A DNA stretch of 64,000 nucleotides, from positions 310,001 to 374,000 of the forward strand of contig JAJYUT010000005.1 of assembly GCA_021792365.1 (NCBI GenBank), in the 5' to 3' direction. The position numbers and the translations under genes are program-made. The first letter of the stretch is position 1. The number at the start of each line of letters is the position of its first letter. Below the pieces are notes generated by a model. It was not told the DNA's origin. It made no database searches and was given only the letters and a program-made list of their open reading frames with translations. This document shows positions 35,167 through 43,278 of the stretch, one piece after another. Source of the stretch: Pseudomonadota bacterium. Lineage in GTDB: Bacteria > Pseudomonadota > Alphaproteobacteria > Dongiales > Dongiaceae.

Positions 35167-36237
35167 TCATTGCTCCGGCGTCTTCGCTTCATTGGTGACG
35201 CGCATCAGGCCTTCGAGCACCTTGCGCGCCTTGGCGAAGTCGATCGCCTCCGCCGCCATCGCGATGCCCTGGCGCAGATCCTTCGCGGCGTCCGCAACGA
35301 CGAGGGCGGCCGCAGAATTCAAGAGAACGATGTCCCGATAGGGGCCCGTCTTGCCGTCCAGCAGCTCGCGGATCGCCTGGGCGTTCTGCGCGGGATCGCC
35401 GCCCTGCAGCTCGGCCGCGCTCGCAGCGCGGATGCCGTGATCGGTCGGCGAAATCTCGAAGCGGCGGATTTTGCCGTTCTTCAGCTCGCAAACATGGGTG
35501 ACCGTCGTGGTGGTGATCTCATCGAGTCCATCGCCGCCATGCACCACCCAGGCATGCTCGGTACCCAGGTTCTTGAGGACGTGCGCGATCGGCTCCATCC
35601 ATTGCTCGGCGAACACGCCCAGGAGCTGGCGCTTGACGCCTGCGGGGTTGGAGAGCGGCCCCATGATGTTGAAGATGGTGCGGGTGCCGAGCTCCACGCG
35701 GGTCGGTCCGACATGGCGCATCGCGCTGTGATGCTTTTGCGCCCACAAGAACGTGGTGCCTACCTCGACCAGAGCGCGCTGCACGGTTTCAAGGTCGGCA
35801 TCAATGTTGACGCCGAGGGCCGCCAGGACATCCGCCGCGCCGCTCTTGGAGGAGGCGGCGCGATTGCCGTGCTTGGCCACCGGTACATTGCAGGCGGCGC
35901 AGACGAAGGCGACGGCGGTGGAGATGTTCAAGGTGCCGGCCTGATCGCCGCCGGTGCCGCAGACGTCGATCGCATCCGGCAGAGCGGGGATGCGCAGCAT
36001 CTTGTCGCGCATCGCGGTGACGGCGCCGGTGATCTCGTCGATCGTCTCGCCGCGCACGCGCATCGCCATCAGCAGGCCGCCCATCTGCGATGGCGTCGCC
36101 TCGCCCGACATCATGATGTTGAAGGCCATCTCCGCCTGGGCGCGGCTGAGCGGCCGGCCTTGCGCCACGATGCCGATGAAAGCCTTGAGGTCGCTGGCCG
36201 GCGCACTCGTCATGGGCAGGGGTTGGGGCGCGCTCAT
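35167..36237 (-). CDS. trpD: Anthranilate phosphoribosyltransferase
   Basis: A 356-residue enzyme that joins anthranilate and PRPP. It shows [23 protein letters not shown] (PRPP loop), [22 protein letters not shown], and [21 protein letters not shown]. The ATG at 36237 overlaps the trpG stop (ATGA); a second Met eight residues on is also possible. The N-terminal domain reads [20 protein letters not shown]. Confidence 0.95.
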
Positions 36238-36836
36238 TGCAGGACGTGCAATCCGGAAAGGTTGCAGCCGGCCCCCTTGAGGAAGTTGGCGAGCAGCCTG
36301 TGGCCGTGCTCGGTGGCGATGCTCTCCGGGTGGAACTGCACCCCGGCCAGAGGCAGCGTCTTGTGCTGCAGGCCCATGACGATCCCGTCCTCGGTCTCGG
36401 CGGTGACATCGAGATCGGCGGGGAAGGTGTCGCGCTCGACCGTCAGCGAGTGATAGCGGGTGGCCTGGAACTCCCCGGGGAGTCCGTGGAACACGCTCTT
36501 GTTGTTGTGCCGGATGTGGCTGATCTTGCCGTGCATGGGCTTGGGGGCGCGCACCACCTTGCCACCGAAGGCTTGGCCGATCGCCTGATGGCCGAGGCAG
36601 ACGCCGAGCAAGGGGATGTTGTGCCTGGCGGCAGCTTTCACGAGGTCGAGGCAGATGCCGGCCTTGTCCGGATCGCACGGGCCGGGCGACAGGATGATTC
36701 CCTGCGGGTGTTTGGCCAGGACCTCATCCACCGTGATCTTGTCGTTCCGGTGGACTTCGATCTCGGCCCCCAACTCCCCCAAATAATGGTAGAGGTTGTA
36801 GGTGAAGGAATCGTAGTTATCGATCAGGATGAACAT
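36234..36836 (-). CDS. trpG: Anthranilate synthase component II (glutamine amidotransferase)
   Basis: A 200-residue class I glutamine amidotransferase. Starts [19 protein letters not shown]; the oxyanion loop [13 protein letters not shown] and the nucleophile elbow [15 protein letters not shown] (Cys) come next, and the His-Glu pair is in [14 protein letters not shown]. It feeds ammonia to TrpE, which is not in the window. It is the first gene of the trpGDC-moaC-moeA unit. No leader peptide or attenuator hairpin was seen in the 158 bases upstream. Confidence 0.95.
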
Positions 36837-36994
36837 GGTCGCGCAACACCGGTCCACGGAAGGCCAATTCAATCTTGGCGCAGAGTGTAGCCGCCCGGGG
36901 ATGGGGGGAGCAAGGTTGGCCACGAAGGCTTCCGCCTTCGCCAATGCGGCTTCGTTCCGGACCCTTCCCCAGCGGGGGGCAGGGGATTAGCGGC

Positions 36995-38572
36995 ATGGCC
37001 GAGGCTGCTCGACCTGCCGCATCGGCCTTCCGGATCGGCCGCTCGGTCTGGGTCTGGCCGGTGGCGGCGGCGCTGCTGGCAGCCTGGCCGGTCTGGCGCT
37101 CGTTCTTTGCAGAGATGCCGGATATCGGGCAACCGCCGCTGCGCGGGCAGGTCGCGGCTTGCCTGGGCGCGCTGGTGCTGGTCGGCGGCTGGATCGCCCG
37201 CTACCGCGGACGCATCACCAGGTTCCATCTGCCGCTGCTGGGCATGGGCGTCGCGCTCATGGTGCTGATCATCGCGAGCGTGAAGGGGGACGCGCGGGCG
37301 GCGGATCTCAGCGCGCTCGCGATCTGCTGGCTTGCCGCCGTCTTCCTGTTTGCCGGCACCATCCTGCTGGAGGGTCAGCGCGCTTTCGTCACGACGCAGG
37401 GCGGCACAGTCCCGCAGGTCGCCATGCTGCTGCGCGCGCATGAGCGCATCGGGTACGCCCTGCTCGGCATCGCGCTCGCGGCGGCGACGATACCGATGAC
37501 CCTGCAAGGTTTCCTGCTGGCAGTCCTCGCGGCGATCTCGCCGGGTGCGGTGCTGATCTGGGCTTACCTGTGCGACACCGCGCGCTCGGTGCTTGCAGGG
37601 CGTCGGGTGCAAGTCGCCGATATGGCTGCGCTCACGACGCTGGCTGGGCGAAAGGCCATCGTCCTCGGTGAACCCGGCCTGCTGATCGCGCCGCGGCCCA
37701 AGGTGATCAGCATCATGCCCGTCGGAGACGTCAAGCCCGGGGAGATCGTCGGAGCGGCATCCGCGCTGCTGGGCGATGACGACAGCGACGTGGCGCGCGG
37801 CCTGCACGAGTTCGGCGTGTCGCACCGCTTGCGCGTCCCGGCCGTCACTCCGCTGGCGACGGATACGCCTGCGCTGCATCGCGGCCGCCTGCCGGACCGC
37901 CGCGTGGTCGAGATCGGCGTTATCGCCTCCAGCGCGATCAGCGCGGATGAGCGCGCGCCGTTCGCCGATCAGCTTGCGCGCGCCGCCGAGTTGCATCGCG
38001 TCGTGCTGGCGCTGCACGAGGTCGAGCCGGCACCGCGGCTGCTGGGTTTGATCGTGCTGGCGAAGCATGCGCGTCCGGGCGCCCTAGAGACCGTGCGCAC
38101 GTTGCGCAAGGCGGATTTCACGCTCGCCTTGGCCACAGCCGAGATCGACCCCAAGGACCAGGACGCGCTCAGCGGCCTTGAGATCGCACGCGGGCAGGAT
38201 GGGCCGCCAACTGCGATCGGGATCGTCCACCCGGGCCAGGCGCCGCTCGAGGCCTGCGCGGCCACCATCCATTTCGGCGGCCGCGCGCAGGCGGATGGCG
38301 GGCAGGATCGCGAGATCGTCGTTTCTCGCGACGATCCGCGGACCCTGGTCGACCTGCTGCAATTCGCGCGCGACCTCAAGGTGCGCACGCGGATGGCCGT
38401 CATCATCGCCAACCTGCCGGGCGTCGTGTTGCTGGCCGCCGCGCTTGGCTATGTGCCGGCATCGCCGCTCTTCGTGACCCTTGTCGCACTCGCGGGCATC
38501 GCGCTGGCGGTGGTCATGCCGCAAGCCTTGCGCCTCTCCCCGACCCTGGCTAATGAGGTCGACGAGGAATAG
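36995..38572 (+). CDS. P-type-ATPase-like membrane protein lacking all catalytic motifs (pseudoenzyme)
   Basis: A 525-residue protein that aligns by eye with the core of CPx-type (copper) P-type ATPases. Order: four N-terminal helices, a pair of helices with ISPGAV at 181-186 where ATPases have CPC, then DMAALTTLAGRKAIVLGEPG, where DKTGTLT should follow but GEPGLLI stands (225-231). Then LLGLIVLAKHARPGALETVRTLR, with TAE (381-383) in place of TGD, and GIVHPGQAPLEACAATIHFGG in place of GDGINDAPAL. Two C-terminal helices complete the eight-helix plan. The phosphorylated Asp and hydrolysis residues are gone, so it cannot pump by the known mechanism. It is followed 7 bases on by a deacetylase gene. 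Confidence 0.7.
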   Translation: MAEAARPAASAFRIGRSVWVWPVAAALLAAWPVWRSFFAEMPDIGQPPLRGQVAACLGALVLVGGWIARYRGRITRFHLPLLGMGVALMVLIIASVKGDARAADLSALAICWLAAVFLFAGTILLEGQRAFVTTQGGTVPQVAMLLRAHERIGYALLGIALAAATIPMTLQGFLLAVLAAISPGAVLIWAYLCDTARSVLAGRRVQVADMAALTTLAGRKAIVLGEPGLLIAPRPKVISIMPVGDVKPGEIVGAASALLGDDDSDVARGLHEFGVSHRLRVPAVTPLATDTPALHRGRLPDRRVVEIGVIASSAISADERAPFADQLARAAELHRVVLALHEVEPAPRLLGLIVLAKHARPGALETVRTLRKADFTLALATAEIDPKDQDALSGLEIARGQDGPPTAIGIVHPGQAPLEACAATIHFGGRAQADGGQDREIVVSRDDPRTLVDLLQFARDLKVRTRMAVIIANLPGVVLLAAALGYVPASPLFVTLVALAGIALAVVMPQALRLSPTLANEVDEE

Positions 38573-38579
38573 GGGACTC

Positions 38580-39794
38580 ATGGCACGCAAAAAGGCACGA
38601 TCGCGCCGCCGTGCACGCAAGGCGCACAACGGCAGGCCTGCCGCCGCGGGCCCGACTACGCTCGGGCTGCTGATGCGCAGCGGCTGGAGCCGATTCGCGA
38701 GCGGCATCGCGATTGGCCTCGTGCTCGGAGTCGGTGCCGCGTTCTATCTGGGCGGTTTCGACCTCCTGCTGCACGACAACCGCGCCGTCAAGGTTACAAC
38801 CCTCAATGCCTCGCCGGTGGAGGAGCAGGCGGCGCTGCCACCGAAGCCCGCGCCACCGAAGCCGGTCGCGGCGCCCACCATCGTCGAGCGGGTCGTCGAA
38901 TCCGCGCCATCGCGGCCGCGCCCCCAGGGAGAGGAGGCGCGGCGCACGCCGGCGCCAACGCCCGCCGGGCTTCCGACGCCCATGAGGCCGGCAGCGGCGG
39001 CGGAAACGTCCTCCGGTCAGCAAGCCGCGGCGATTGCGCCCGCCCCGCCGGCCTATGTCGACAGCGACATGACCTGGCTGAAGAACGCGGTCGCGTTCCC
39101 GGTGCCGCGCGGCCGGCCGCTGATCGCCATCGTTCTGGACGACGTGGGGGTGGTGCGCAGCCACGCACAGATGGCGATCGATCTGCCCGGCGCCGTCACA
39201 CTCTCGTTCATGACCTATGCCGATGGCGTGGCCGAGATGGCGGCCCGCGCGCGCGCCAACGGGCATGAACTGATGCTGCACGTGCCGATGCAGCCGCTCG
39301 ATGGCGACCTAGACGCGGGACCGCAGGCGCTGACCGTCGGGTTGTCGGAGGAAGAACTGCTCAAGCGGCTTGCCTGGGGCCTCGACCGCTTTTCCGGCTA
39401 TGTCGGCATCAACAACCACATGGGCAGCCGCTTCACCCAGGATGAGCGGGGCATGCGGATTGTGCTGGACGAGCTCAAACGGCGCGGGCTGCTCTTCCTG
39501 GATTCGCGCACCATCAACACGTCGGTGGGCGACAAACTGGCCGCGCGCATGGGGGTTGCGCATGTGGTGCGCGACGTGTTTCTCGATGACGAGATGAGCG
39601 AGGCCGCGGTGATGAGTCAGCTCGCTTTCACCGAGAGGGTGGCGGCGAGCAAGGGGCACGCCATTGCGATCGGGCACCCGCATCCAGCCACCTTGGCGGC
39701 GCTGCGCGCCTGGATGCCGAAAGCCGAAGCGCGCGGCTTCGTGATCGTGCCGCTCTCCGCGATTGCCAGGCTTCGCCTCGGCGTTTCCGGCTAG
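38580..39794 (+). CDS. Divergent polysaccharide deacetylase family protein
   Basis: A 404-residue protein: a very basic cytosolic start (MARKKARSRRRARKAHNGR), one membrane helix (about residues 40-58), a Pro/Ala-rich linker (about 75-155), and a C-terminal NodB-like domain of the divergent class. Visible motifs are PLIAIVLDDVGVVRSHAQMA, LPGAVTLSFMTYAD, ELMLHVPMQP, YVGINNHMGSRFT and IAIGHPHPATLAAL. In the family these sit on the periplasmic side and probably act on envelope glycans. AGGGG lies before the ATG. It is likely co-transcribed with the pseudo-ATPase. Confidence 0.8.
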   Translation: MARKKARSRRRARKAHNGRPAAAGPTTLGLLMRSGWSRFASGIAIGLVLGVGAAFYLGGFDLLLHDNRAVKVTTLNASPVEEQAALPPKPAPPKPVAAPTIVERVVESAPSRPRPQGEEARRTPAPTPAGLPTPMRPAAAAETSSGQQAAAIAPAPPAYVDSDMTWLKNAVAFPVPRGRPLIAIVLDDVGVVRSHAQMAIDLPGAVTLSFMTYADGVAEMAARARANGHELMLHVPMQPLDGDLDAGPQALTVGLSEEELLKRLAWGLDRFSGYVGINNHMGSRFTQDERGMRIVLDELKRRGLLFLDSRTINTSVGDKLAARMGVAHVVRDVFLDDEMSEAAVMSQLAFTERVAASKGHAIAIGHPHPATLAALRAWMPKAEARGFVIVPLSAIARLRLGVSG

Positions 39795-40940
39795 CTATTC
39801 CGCCGCGGCATCGCGCCGGCGCAGGTGGCGCCCTTCGCGCTTCACGAGGTGCATCGGGAATTGCAGGTGGATCTCCGAGCCGCGGCCGCTGGTATTGACC
39901 ACCGCGAACTGGCCGCCGAGCGAATCCATCAGCGCCCTGACGATCATCAGGCTCATGCCGGCGGCCTCGTCGGCGCGCGCGATGAACAGCGATCGGCCGT
40001 CGTAGGTGCGCCGGGCGGGGCTGCCAGCGCCCAGCGTGGGGTTGGGCCCGGTATCGCGGATCGATAGGTCGAGCCGGCCGTCGCCACCGAACCCGACCGA
40101 CAGGATGATCGCCCCGCCGTCGGGCGTGCGCATCGCGGCATCCTTGATCAGCTCGCGCACGATCTGCCGCATCAGCAGCGGCTGAACCCTGAGACCGACA
40201 TCGAGCTCCGGCATGCGGATGCCGAAGGTGAGGCGCTTGGTCGCGAAGGTCGCGACCGCCCAGGTATGGGCCTCGCGCAGCACGGTCGCGACAGAGGTGG
40301 CCTGCTCCGCCGGCTTGGCGATCGAACCCTCGACGCGCGACAGCTCGATGATGTCGGTGATGCGCGCCAGCAATTGCCGGCCGGCCCGGACGACCTGTTG
40401 CGCCGCCTCGCGATAGGCCGATCGACCGATCGCGCCATACATCTCCCGCTCGATCATCTCGCCATAGCCGAGGATGGTGGTGAGCGGGGTGCGCAAATCG
40501 TGCCCCGCCTCGGCCAGGAAGCGCGACTTGTCGGCGTTGGCCTGATCGGCATCCAAGCGTGCGCGCTCGGCGCGCAGCAGCAGCGCCTGCGCTTCCTTGC
40601 GCACGGCGTCCTGCGACTGGGCATGGCGCAGCAGGCGCAACACCACTGCGACCAGGAGGATCGACGTGACGGCGGTGAGCGCCAGCACGCTCCAGTGCAG
40701 CATGTCGAGCCTGGCGACCTGCTGTGCCAGCGGCCCCGGATCGCCATTCGCCAGGGCCGCGGCAACCCTGTCGTGCTGGCGCAGCAGAAGGGGAATGCCG
40801 ACCACCAGGGCGGTGCCCAGGACGCCCGCCGCCGCCAGGCCAACCGCCTGGGTCACAGCCAAGGCGCGGCGTCCTCCCGGACCTTCCTTGGAACCGTTCG
40901 GCGGCACGCGCTCGAGCGGCGGCAGCAGTTCGCGCAACAT
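39795..40940 (-). CDS. Sensor histidine kinase with degenerate ATP-binding domain
   Basis: A 381-residue kinase. Two helices (about residues 28-52 and 80-103) flank a short periplasmic loop. The dimerisation box FLAEAGHDLRTPLTTILGYG is intact with its His. In the ATPase part the N box reads LIKDAAMRTPDGG (Asn replaced by Asp) and the G1 box IRDTGPNPT departs from DTGxGI. Autophosphorylation may be weak or absent. No response regulator is adjacent. The stop abuts that of the convergent deacetylase gene. Confidence 0.75.
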   Translation of the reverse strand: MLRELLPPLERVPPNGSKEGPGGRRALAVTQAVGLAAAGVLGTALVVGIPLLLRQHDRVAAALANGDPGPLAQQVARLDMLHWSVLALTAVTSILLVAVVLRLLRHAQSQDAVRKEAQALLLRAERARLDADQANADKSRFLAEAGHDLRTPLTTILGYGEMIEREMYGAIGRSAYREAAQQVVRAGRQLLARITDIIELSRVEGSIAKPAEQATSVATVLREAHTWAVATFATKRLTFGIRMPELDVGLRVQPLLMRQIVRELIKDAAMRTPDGGAIILSVGFGGDGRLDLSIRDTGPNPTLGAGSPARRTYDGRSLFIARADEAAGMSLMIVRALMDSLGGQFAVVNTSGRGSEIHLQFPMHLVKREGRHLRRRDAAAE

Positions 40941-41307: not shown

Positions 41308-43278
41308 ATGGTTCTAAAAATGAGCAGCCGCGGACTGGCCGCAGCCCGTGAGCGGGGTTTTGCCGATCTACTGGGGCGCGTCGACGCCGGCATCGCCGGC
41401 GCGGCGGATGCCTTGGCGCGCCGGCAACAGCCGGACGGGCATTGGGCGTTCGAACTGGAAGCCGATGCCACCATCCCGGCGGAATACATCCTGCTGCGTC
41501 ATTTTCTGGGTGAGCCCGAGGACCCGGTCCTCGAGGCCAAGATCGTGCGCTATCTCTGGTCGATCCAGGGCGATCATGGCGGCTGGCCGCTGTTCCACGG
41601 CGGCGATTTCAACATGTCCGCCAGCGTGAAGGCCTATTACGCGCTCAAGATCTGCGGCGAGCACCCGAACGCGCCGGTGATGAAGCGTGCCCGCGAGGCG
41701 ATCCTCGCGCATGGCGGCGCGAAGGAGAGCAACGTCTTCACCCTGATCCAGCTGGCGCTTTATGGGCAGGTGCCGTGGCGCGCCGTGCCGGTGATGCCGG
41801 TGGAGATCATGGCCCTGCCGCGCTGGTTCCCCTTCCATCTGGACAAGATCAGCTACTGGTCGCGCACGGTGATCGTGCCGCTGCTGGTGCTGATGGCGAA
41901 GCGCCCGCTGGCGCGCAACCCGCGCAAGGTCGACGTGCGCGAGTTGTTCGTCACCCCCCCGGAGCAGGTGAAGGACTGGTACAACTACAACCGCAAGGGC
42001 GCTTGGGCGGCGTTCTTCCGCGCCGTGGACCGGATTCTGCAGCGCGCCCAGGTGCTGTTCCCCAAGAGGCTGCGCGAACGCTGCATCCAGGATGCGGTGA
42101 AATGGGTGGGCGAGCGCCTGAACGGTGAGGACGGCCTCGGCGCGATCTATCCGGCGATGGCCAACTCCGTGATGATGTACGACGTGCTCGGCTATCCCGA
42201 GACTCATCCGGAGCGCGCGACCGCTCGCGGCTCGGTGGAGAAGCTGATGGTGTTCAAGGAGGGCGTCGCCTATTGCCAGCCCTGCCTGTCGCCGGTGTGG
42301 GACACCGCGCTCGCGGCTCATGCGATGATGGAGGCGGGCGGCGATGCCGCGGAGCGCGTGAAGCCGGCGCTCGACTGGCTGAAGGACCGCCAGATCCTCG
42401 ACATCTATGGCGATTGGGCGGTGAATTGCCCGGGAGTGCGGCCGGGCGGCTGGGCGTTCCAGTACAACAACGCCTACTACCCCGATGTGGACGACACGGC
42501 CGTCGTGGCGCTGGTGATGGACCGCGCCGACCGGGAGCGCTATCGCGAGAGCATTGACCGCGCCACCGAGTGGGTCTTCGGCCTGCAGAGCGAGAATGGC
42601 GGCTGGGGTGCGTTCGACAAGAACAACGAGTACTACTATCTCAACTACATTCCGTTTGCCGACCACGGCGCGCTGCTCGATCCGCCGACCGCGGACGTTT
42701 CGGCACGCTGCCTCTCCATGCTGGCGCAGCTTGGCTACAAGCGGGACCATCCGAAGGTGAAGGCCGCAATCGACTACCTGCTGAAGGAGCAGGAGGCGGA
42801 TGGTTCCTGGTTCGGCCGCTGGGGCACCAATTACATCTATGGCACATGGTCGGTGCTGTGTGCGCTCAACTCAGTCGGCGTTCCGGCCGATCATCCGGCC
42901 ATGCGCAAGGCCGTGGCATGGCTCAAGTCCAGGCAGCGCGAGGACGGCGGCTGGGGCGAGGATGGGGCGTCGTATTGGGCGGACCAGCCGCGCGGCGAGG
43001 GCAAGGACGCGACCCCCTCGCAGACCGCCTGGGCGCTGCTGGGCCTGATGGCCGCTGGCGAAGTCGACGACACGGCGGTCGAGCGCGGGGTCCACTATCT
43101 GGCCGAGACTCAGACCGAAGATGGGCTTTGGAGCGAGGAACACTTCACCGCGGTGGGCTTTCCGCGCGTGTTCTACCTGCGCTATCACGGCTATCGCGCG
43201 TTCTTCCCGCTCTGGGCCATGGCGCGCTATCGCAACCTGAAGCGCGGCAACGGCACCACCGTCCTGCACGGGATGTGA
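41308..43278 (+). CDS. shc: Squalene-hopene cyclase
   Basis: A 656-residue membrane-associated cyclase that turns squalene into hopene and diplopterol. The catalytic acid motif DVDDTA (from residue 393) is intact. Several QW repeats are seen (QQPDGHWAFELE, QSENGGWGAF, QREDGGWGEDG, QTEDGLWSEEHF). The YGTWSVLCAL region and the C-terminal PRVFYLRYHGYRAFFPLWA are typical. An in-frame ATG four codons later may be the start. It is six bases upstream of hpnG and heads the hopanoid region. Confidence 0.96.
   Translation: MVLKMSSRGLAAARERGFADLLGRVDAGIAGAADALARRQQPDGHWAFELEADATIPAEYILLRHFLGEPEDPVLEAKIVRYLWSIQGDHGGWPLFHGGDFNMSASVKAYYALKICGEHPNAPVMKRAREAILAHGGAKESNVFTLIQLALYGQVPWRAVPVMPVEIMALPRWFPFHLDKISYWSRTVIVPLLVLMAKRPLARNPRKVDVRELFVTPPEQVKDWYNYNRKGAWAAFFRAVDRILQRAQVLFPKRLRERCIQDAVKWVGERLNGEDGLGAIYPAMANSVMMYDVLGYPETHPERATARGSVEKLMVFKEGVAYCQPCLSPVWDTALAAHAMMEAGGDAAERVKPALDWLKDRQILDIYGDWAVNCPGVRPGGWAFQYNNAYYPDVDDTAVVALVMDRADRERYRESIDRATEWVFGLQSENGGWGAFDKNNEYYYLNYIPFADHGALLDPPTADVSARCLSMLAQLGYKRDHPKVKAAIDYLLKEQEADGSWFGRWGTNYIYGTWSVLCALNSVGVPADHPAMRKAVAWLKSRQREDGGWGEDGASYWADQPRGEGKDATPSQTAWALLGLMAAGEVDDTAVERGVHYLAETQTEDGLWSEEHFTAVGFPRVFYLRYHGYRAFFPLWAMARYRNLKRGNGTTVLHGM

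Follow-up and report, generated by a model that had tools for sequence, protein, structure and literature searches.

A conserved family of dead CopA proteins stands in a fixed pair with a gene for a cell-wall deacetylase, and one of its members is encoded in the window, by which we mean the whole 64,000-nucleotide stretch of DNA analyzed here (contig JAJYUT010000005.1, positions 310,001 to 374,000). The 525-codon reading frame is uninterrupted, with no internal stop, and no second match to its product was found within its own genome (Table 1). The deacetylase gene starts 7 nt past its stop codon, and the deacetylase itself matched PF04748 with 258 bits against a curated cut-off of 27.5. As all 12 orthologues are in frame, a sequencing error or frameshift was ruled out. 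The original prediction, made from the window sequence alone, had described an intact gene closely followed by a deacetylase gene, and both points hold; it had noted neither the 7-nt distance nor the absence of the actuator domain in this genus. Its observations stood throughout; its interpretation stood for the fold, the loss of the catalytic motifs, the maintenance of the gene and the deacetylase link, while the passive channel that it also envisaged is disfavored. We give about even chances to the reading that a CopA was inactivated where it stood and that the membrane protein has since been retained in association with the peptidoglycan-type deacetylase encoded downstream. Further along the window, a gene that reads as histidine-kinase-like (39795-40940, minus strand) lies between the deacetylase gene and a squalene-hopene-cyclase-like gene (41308-43278, plus strand), and in genomes G001 and G002 the histidine-kinase-like gene is accompanied by another, related one.

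Table 1. Features of the pseudo-ATPase and deacetylase locus, in window coordinates.
Feature	Positions	Strand	Basis
Pseudo-P1B ATPase (dead CopA derivative), 525 aa	36995..38572	+	ORF, profile, alignment, structure comparison
trpG (trpD and trpC beyond), divergent neighbor marking the shared locus	36234..36836	-	Gene order
Divergent polysaccharide deacetylase, PF04748, SddA/YibQ family, 404 aa	38580..39794	+	Pfam E 4.9e-77
Short loop (about residues 126-150) at the actuator/TGE position	37370..37444	+	Alignment gap; limits approximate
SPG replacing the CPC metal site, residues 182-184	37538..37546	+	Pro in 12/12, Cys in 0/12 at both positions
GEPGLLI replacing DKTGTLT, residues 225-231	37667..37687	+	Asp, Lys and first Thr in 0/12
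Last codons GCTAATGAGGTCGACGAGGA, probable region of translation initiation for the deacetylase gene	38549..38568	+	DNA conservation
Deacetylase membrane helix with GxxxGxxxG zipper, residues about 39-58	38694..38753	+	Sequence comparison

On its own, the window protein matches P-type ATPases weakly. The P1B ATPase model TIGR01525 gave E 1.3e-4 and 21 bits (curated cut-off 346), Pfam returned nothing beyond a HAD match at E 0.12, a phmmer search against the PDB gave no match up to E 1, and the protein stayed below the curated cut-offs of NCBIfam and Pfam. Its orthologues settle the kinship. A profile built from seven long orthologues matched solved CopA structures with E 1.2e-36, in an alignment that spans the actuator domain, M4, and the P and N domains. 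The AlphaFold model of a long orthologue (mean pLDDT 75.2, pTM 0.62) matched P1B structures in Foldseek with E 1.6e-24, its closest structures being P1B pumps for copper, zinc and cadmium. For the window protein, the model was poor overall (mean pLDDT 52.8, residues 1-185 unreliable) and matched P1B structures with E 7.2e-16, with isolated P/N domains among the matches; the P/N region was also its best-modeled part, with ten-residue means of 69-86 over residues 241-360. Orthologues within the order reach 654 aa and include an actuator domain, most of them retaining a form of the VxPGxxIPxDG signature, and G009 alone among four orthologues scanned passed the cut-off of PF00122 (E1-E2 model). 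The family profile gave 444-695 bits for the 12 full-length orthologues vs. 98-149 bits for the 21 active ATPases read from the same order. These results confirm that the family descends from copper-type (P1B) ATPases and bear out the P-type ATPase fold that had been proposed; the comparison with P1B pump structures, chosen beforehand as the check on that fold, returned a match and not the blank that would have spoken against it. An unrelated membrane protein with chance motifs is ruled out by the family profile, the CopA-profile match and the Foldseek matches.

Motif loss was counted on an alignment of the 12 orthologues with 46 active ATPases, at columns with little or no variation among the active proteins. 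Besides the two replacements listed in Table 1, TGD reads TAE at residues 381-383 of the window protein, and GDGxND is a G-I-V-H-P-G stretch at about residues 409-414. The Gly of DKTGT is retained in 11 of the 12 orthologues, whereas that of TGD is found in none and its Asp in one. For GDGxND, the first Asp is aligned in five orthologues, the Asn in one and the last Asp in three; the five with the first Asp are, by alignment, all Dongia genus forms, and in four of them the preceding Gly is changed. The TGE Glu, the HP-motif His of the nucleotide domain, the P-domain Lys, and the Met and first Ser of M6 are absent from all 12. None of the features that we took to mark an active P1B ATPase (the DKTGT Asp, CPC, TGE, TGD/GDGxND and the HP His) is present in the window protein. 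Set against 46 active ATPases, the readings of CPC, DKTGTLT, TGD and GDGxND in the original prediction are thus correct, and the motif loss is common to all 12 orthologues.

The architecture has also been reduced, in different ways. Four carriers, all of the window's genus, lack the actuator domain and have a loop of about 25 aa instead; the other eight retain the domain. G009 (loci L005/L072) has no N-terminal helices and begins directly with an almost canonical actuator domain, with TGS for TGE, a loss that is the reverse of the one in the window's genus. The core common to the family comprises M3-M4, P/N and M5-M6. One residue occupies a column in at least 11 of the 12 orthologues at 35 positions, part of them structural and common to active pumps, others new to the family: V275, F427, L454 and G501 (each in 11/12 orthologues and 0/46 active ATPases) and R280 (12/12 and 1/46). 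A sensor in which the N and P domains still bind a nucleotide or another ligand and signal to the deacetylase would fit the comparatively well-modeled P/N region and the nucleotide-domain GxG, which eight of the 12 orthologues retain. Yet the HP-motif His is gone throughout and the GxG is missing from the four genomes of the window's genus, and we consider such a sensor very unlikely.

Of the 17 genomes in the order (Dongia and relatives), 12 encode the pseudo-ATPase, in every case with trpG on one side and the PF04748 deacetylase gene on the other. We take the order to be Dongiales, and genus g4 is presumably Hypericibacter. In G004, G005, G006 and G010, which are without the gene, the trp genes adjoin the deacetylase gene directly; in G007, whose trp locus was left out of the reading, the sole deacetylase match lies elsewhere in the genome. 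One apparent match, L011 in G005, covers query residues 216-324 with three stops and was rejected as spurious. Carriers include Dongia mobilis CGMCC 1.7660 (locus L111). A scan of the named genomes with the long-form alignment gave six loci and identified the carriers as the Dongia group, and a scan of that collection with the window protein gave no relative. Among 385 genomes of the class, a profile search recovered the family in five alone, those sampled from the Dongia group (443-693 bits). Another 25 matches exceeded the threshold, with at most 204 bits, and every one of them has CPC and DKTGT; as the threshold was 1e-42 and at most three candidates were scored per genome, diverged or weaker members could be missed. 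In an IQ-TREE tree of the trp and deacetylase proteins from 16 genomes, the four non-carriers separate with a support of 100, so that under midpoint rooting the carriers form one clade, with no gene loss within the sampled carriers' branch.

The dead protein is under purifying selection. Its frame is open in 12/12 orthologues at 21-76% identity, and dN/dS was 0.16-0.31 for six pairs by NG86 and 0.10-0.18 by YN00, remaining below 1 in every domain (0.05-0.55), ratios that are rough because dS was often near or above 1. The corresponding values were 0.12-0.32 for the deacetylase gene and 0.05-0.19 for trpG and trpD, and the pseudo-ATPase evolves faster than these two trp proteins. At least one intact P1B ATPase is encoded elsewhere in the genome of all 12 carriers, so copper export does not explain the retention of the gene. 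A superfluous remnant of copA, gradually being lost with its frame still open, would agree with these intact ATPases, with the faster change than in the trp genes and with the loss of different parts in two lineages. Slow decay of this kind is nevertheless hard to reconcile with open frames in all carriers at such divergence, with dN/dS well below 1, with the newly fixed family-specific residues and with the absence of loss on the sampled carriers' branch (midpoint rooting); simple decay is therefore disfavored, and we hold it to be distinctly unlikely. The gene is maintained, as had been supposed, and in place of scattered, decaying orthologues, which would have told against the original prediction, we found 12 of 12 sharing both the slot and the motif loss.

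The pairing with the deacetylase gene recurs in all 12 carriers, and coupling is tight. In 11 of them, an in-frame deacetylase start lies no more than 7 nt from the pseudo-ATPase stop: the gap to the called start is 1-7 nt in eight, and in G001, G011 and G016 an in-frame start upstream of the automatic call falls within 7 nt. G009, where the deacetylase starts 86 nt away, is the exception. Compared with the 20-nt GCTAATGAGGTCGACGAGGA at the end of the gene, eight of the 12 carriers show 0-1 mismatch, three others show 3-4, and G009 shows 7. With up to 2 mismatches allowed, the window's genome contains this element a single time, and it is missing upstream of the deacetylase gene in G004, G005, G006 and G010. 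Between G000 and G015, each of the last seven codons is either unchanged or replaced by a synonym, although the proteins of these two main genera are about 23% identical. Given this conservation at the DNA level, the ANEVDEE tail makes more sense as a DNA element than as a protein feature, and it may serve only the translation of the next gene.

The whole reading frame could be kept on similar grounds, for the leader and ribosome-binding region of the deacetylase gene, with a protein that does little. The close spacing of the deacetylase start, the near-invariant last codons and the uniqueness of the 20-nt element all accord with a role in cis only. However, a leader needs the 3' end alone, yet each domain shows a deficit of nonsynonymous change, and of the 35 conserved columns 31 precede the ANEVDEE tail. 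In addition, the four relatives mentioned above keep the deacetylase with neither the gene nor the 20-nt element. We regard a role in cis only as rather unlikely, and favor a protein that is itself retained.

In the Dongia group, an ordinary CopA apparently lost its function in place, a history that could not be read from the window alone and that is well supported by live loci of the same layout in other Alphaproteobacteria. We read 60 deacetylase regions outside the order, a non-random sample in which L152 and L162 have less than 500 bases upstream. trpG or trpD lies divergently upstream of the deacetylase gene in 40 of these regions. In 11 of the 60, a live ATPase gene (CPC and DKTGT present) is directly upstream on the same strand; nine of these positives (G017, G043, G044, G045, G058, G075, G128, G150 and G175) were known before the regions were read, so that only G049 and G059 were added by the reading. 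Selection was weaker for the 30 best-scoring deacetylase loci, of which 28 are outside the order: within a short flank, at least 6/28 have an ATPase upstream, a lower bound because G049 was missed within that flank. A CueR-like gene stands between the live ATPase and the deacetylase in nine of the 11 positives, and trp genes lie beyond in 10. At L084/L154 (one locus), the ATPase scores above the curated cut-off of the copper-ATPase model TIGR01511; that of the CueR model TIGR02044 is exceeded by the regulators of both L084 and L105.

The control region also differs between live and dead genes. The CueR-type box, for which we assumed the consensus CCTTCC-N7-GGAAGG, was found with 7-base spacing at nine of the 11 live loci, exactly those with a CueR-like gene. 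It lies 24-90 nt ahead of the assumed start, has 0-3 mismatches and is preceded by TTGA in each case. At seven of the nine, no more than 7 of 300 shuffles were as good, compared with 47/300 for L154 and 54/300 for L175. Before the dead genes, such a box was found in 0/12: the best matches at 7-base spacing had 3-5 mismatches and were equaled by many shuffles, the best of all being in G002 (3 mismatches, 59/300 shuffles as good). Box arms with one and two mismatches that a variable-spacing scan detected in G000 and G002 were set aside, as their spacing is 9 bases and they are inside a GC-rich inverted repeat. An inverted repeat of this type occupies window positions 36920-36990, just 5' of the pseudo-ATPase gene, and a similar one lies at about the same place in G002; it may be a dispersed intergenic repeat. 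No carrier has a CueR gene between the dead pump and the deacetylase gene. These observations also bear on the passive channel, or uncoupled metal transporter, raised in the original prediction. Helices M3-M6 and the M4 proline (12/12) are retained and could in principle form such a path; the membrane metal ligands, by contrast, are gone (both CPC cysteines, the M6 Met and the first Ser, each 0/12), the CueR-type box is missing from every carrier and G009 does without the N-terminal helices. The loss of the ligands disfavors a metal channel, which we judge most improbable.

Similarity searches were compared with this picture of inactivation in place. Among 51 active ATPases, of which those from outside the order had been chosen by high score, the L084 CopA was the best match for 8/8 orthologues from genera other than that of the window. 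The four proteins of the window's own genus had a different best match, which for three of them was not a linked CopA. Overall, linked CopAs outscored the other active ATPases only modestly (p 0.011). In a wide FastTree tree, the pseudo-ATPases did not come out adjacent to the linked CopAs; as the dead branch cannot be positioned because of its length, this tree neither supports nor excludes death in place. In the simplest history, trpG and the deacetylase gene would ancestrally have flanked copA-cueR. In the ancestor of the Dongia-group carriers, copA would then have lost its activity where it stood and cueR would have been lost, and in the other branch of the order both copA and cueR would have disappeared.

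Outside the order, live copA-like genes and cueR-like genes are directly upstream of a PF04748 deacetylase gene at L154, L165, L174, L175, L176, L183, L184, L185 and L201. The presence of copA-cueR-deacetylase loci in several alphaproteobacterial families is a hint that copper stress and the deacetylation of peptidoglycan may be connected. At L188 (G143) and L195 (G141), a CueR-like gene is directly upstream of the deacetylase gene and no copA was found before the trp genes; these loci are possible further remnants of the copA-cueR cassette. On reading L188, no diverged ATPase was seen between cueR and trp.

A point of contact between the two proteins may be the deacetylase membrane helix. Its glycine zipper is present in 12/12 carriers vs. 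0/4 non-carriers of the order, as well as in 8/45 other genomes without the ATPase and 4/16 with a live CopA-like pump. For these counts, G007, L156, L166, L175 and L176 were dropped because no domain start was recognizable, L152 and L162 were not included, and some of the loci share a genus (e.g., L087, L091 and L184). The sequence of the zipper suggests a helix contact; that it is made with the pseudo-pump is something we only infer, since the helix could pair with itself and the carriers are related. The zipper may also represent one event among related carriers. Single-span subunits are known to pair with live P-type ATPases, which offers a parallel. The pseudo-pump helices and the zipper helix would touch in the membrane, and the pseudo-pump would thereby determine how much of the deacetylase is present, where it sits or how active it is. 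We infer that the pseudo-pump is a membrane partner or regulator of the deacetylase. A more specific version, in which the pump turned into a non-catalytic subunit that binds and controls the anchor helix of a division-related peptidoglycan deacetylase, as a regulator or receptor, is put forward tentatively, and we would sooner expect it to be wrong than right. The loss of different parts in two lineages (actuator domain or N-terminal helices), together with the faster change than in trpG and trpD, fits a loose constraint and speaks against a partner role, and the four relatives that keep the deacetylase without the gene are another point against such a role.

Pseudokinases and other dead enzymes turned regulators are well known. 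Searches of the open-licence literature gave no account of P-type ATPases that are fully dead and form a conserved family in bacteria, nor, in the parts of it available to us, of a copA-cueR-deacetylase link. The family described here suggests that a dead transporter was given a new job. If this is true, it would represent a transporter pseudoenzyme acting as a regulator or receptor in cell-wall remodeling. Because the locus of the live ancestor and that of the dead descendant can both be read, it can be asked which parts of a pump stay useful without pumping. More broadly, copper export genes are tied to a cell-wall deacetylase in several alphaproteobacterial families.

Compared with CopA (TIGR01511; PDB 3j08, 4bbj), the pseudo-ATPase has the same fold, helix order, and P and N domain layout, but it is without the metal ligands, the phosphorylation site and TGE, and no N-terminal metal-binding domain was seen. 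The locus likewise corresponds to that of other Alphaproteobacteria, in which a live CopA and CueR are encoded between the trp genes and the deacetylase gene, and differs from it in having neither a CueR gene nor a CueR-type box. A P-type ATPase fold with lost signatures is also attached to another enzyme in a guanylate cyclase; that case is eukaryotic, of the P4 class, fused to the cyclase and without an operon link, and it is independent of the present one. The closest counterpart on the deacetylase side may be SddA (YibQ) of Escherichia coli. SddA deacetylates denuded peptidoglycan strands, sits at division sites and is co-expressed with envC, whose presence in the same operon reduced the amount of SddA, perhaps through translational coupling (PMC12440217). 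Both systems would thus combine a PF04748 gene with an upstream operon partner that affects the amount of its product, a place that the dead pump would occupy in the carriers and in which its role might be comparable to that of EnvC for SddA. EnvC differs in being an amidase activator with no relation to ATPases, and SddA has a predicted signal peptide (PMC12440217) where the Dongia-group enzyme has a hydrophobic helix, a putative anchor.
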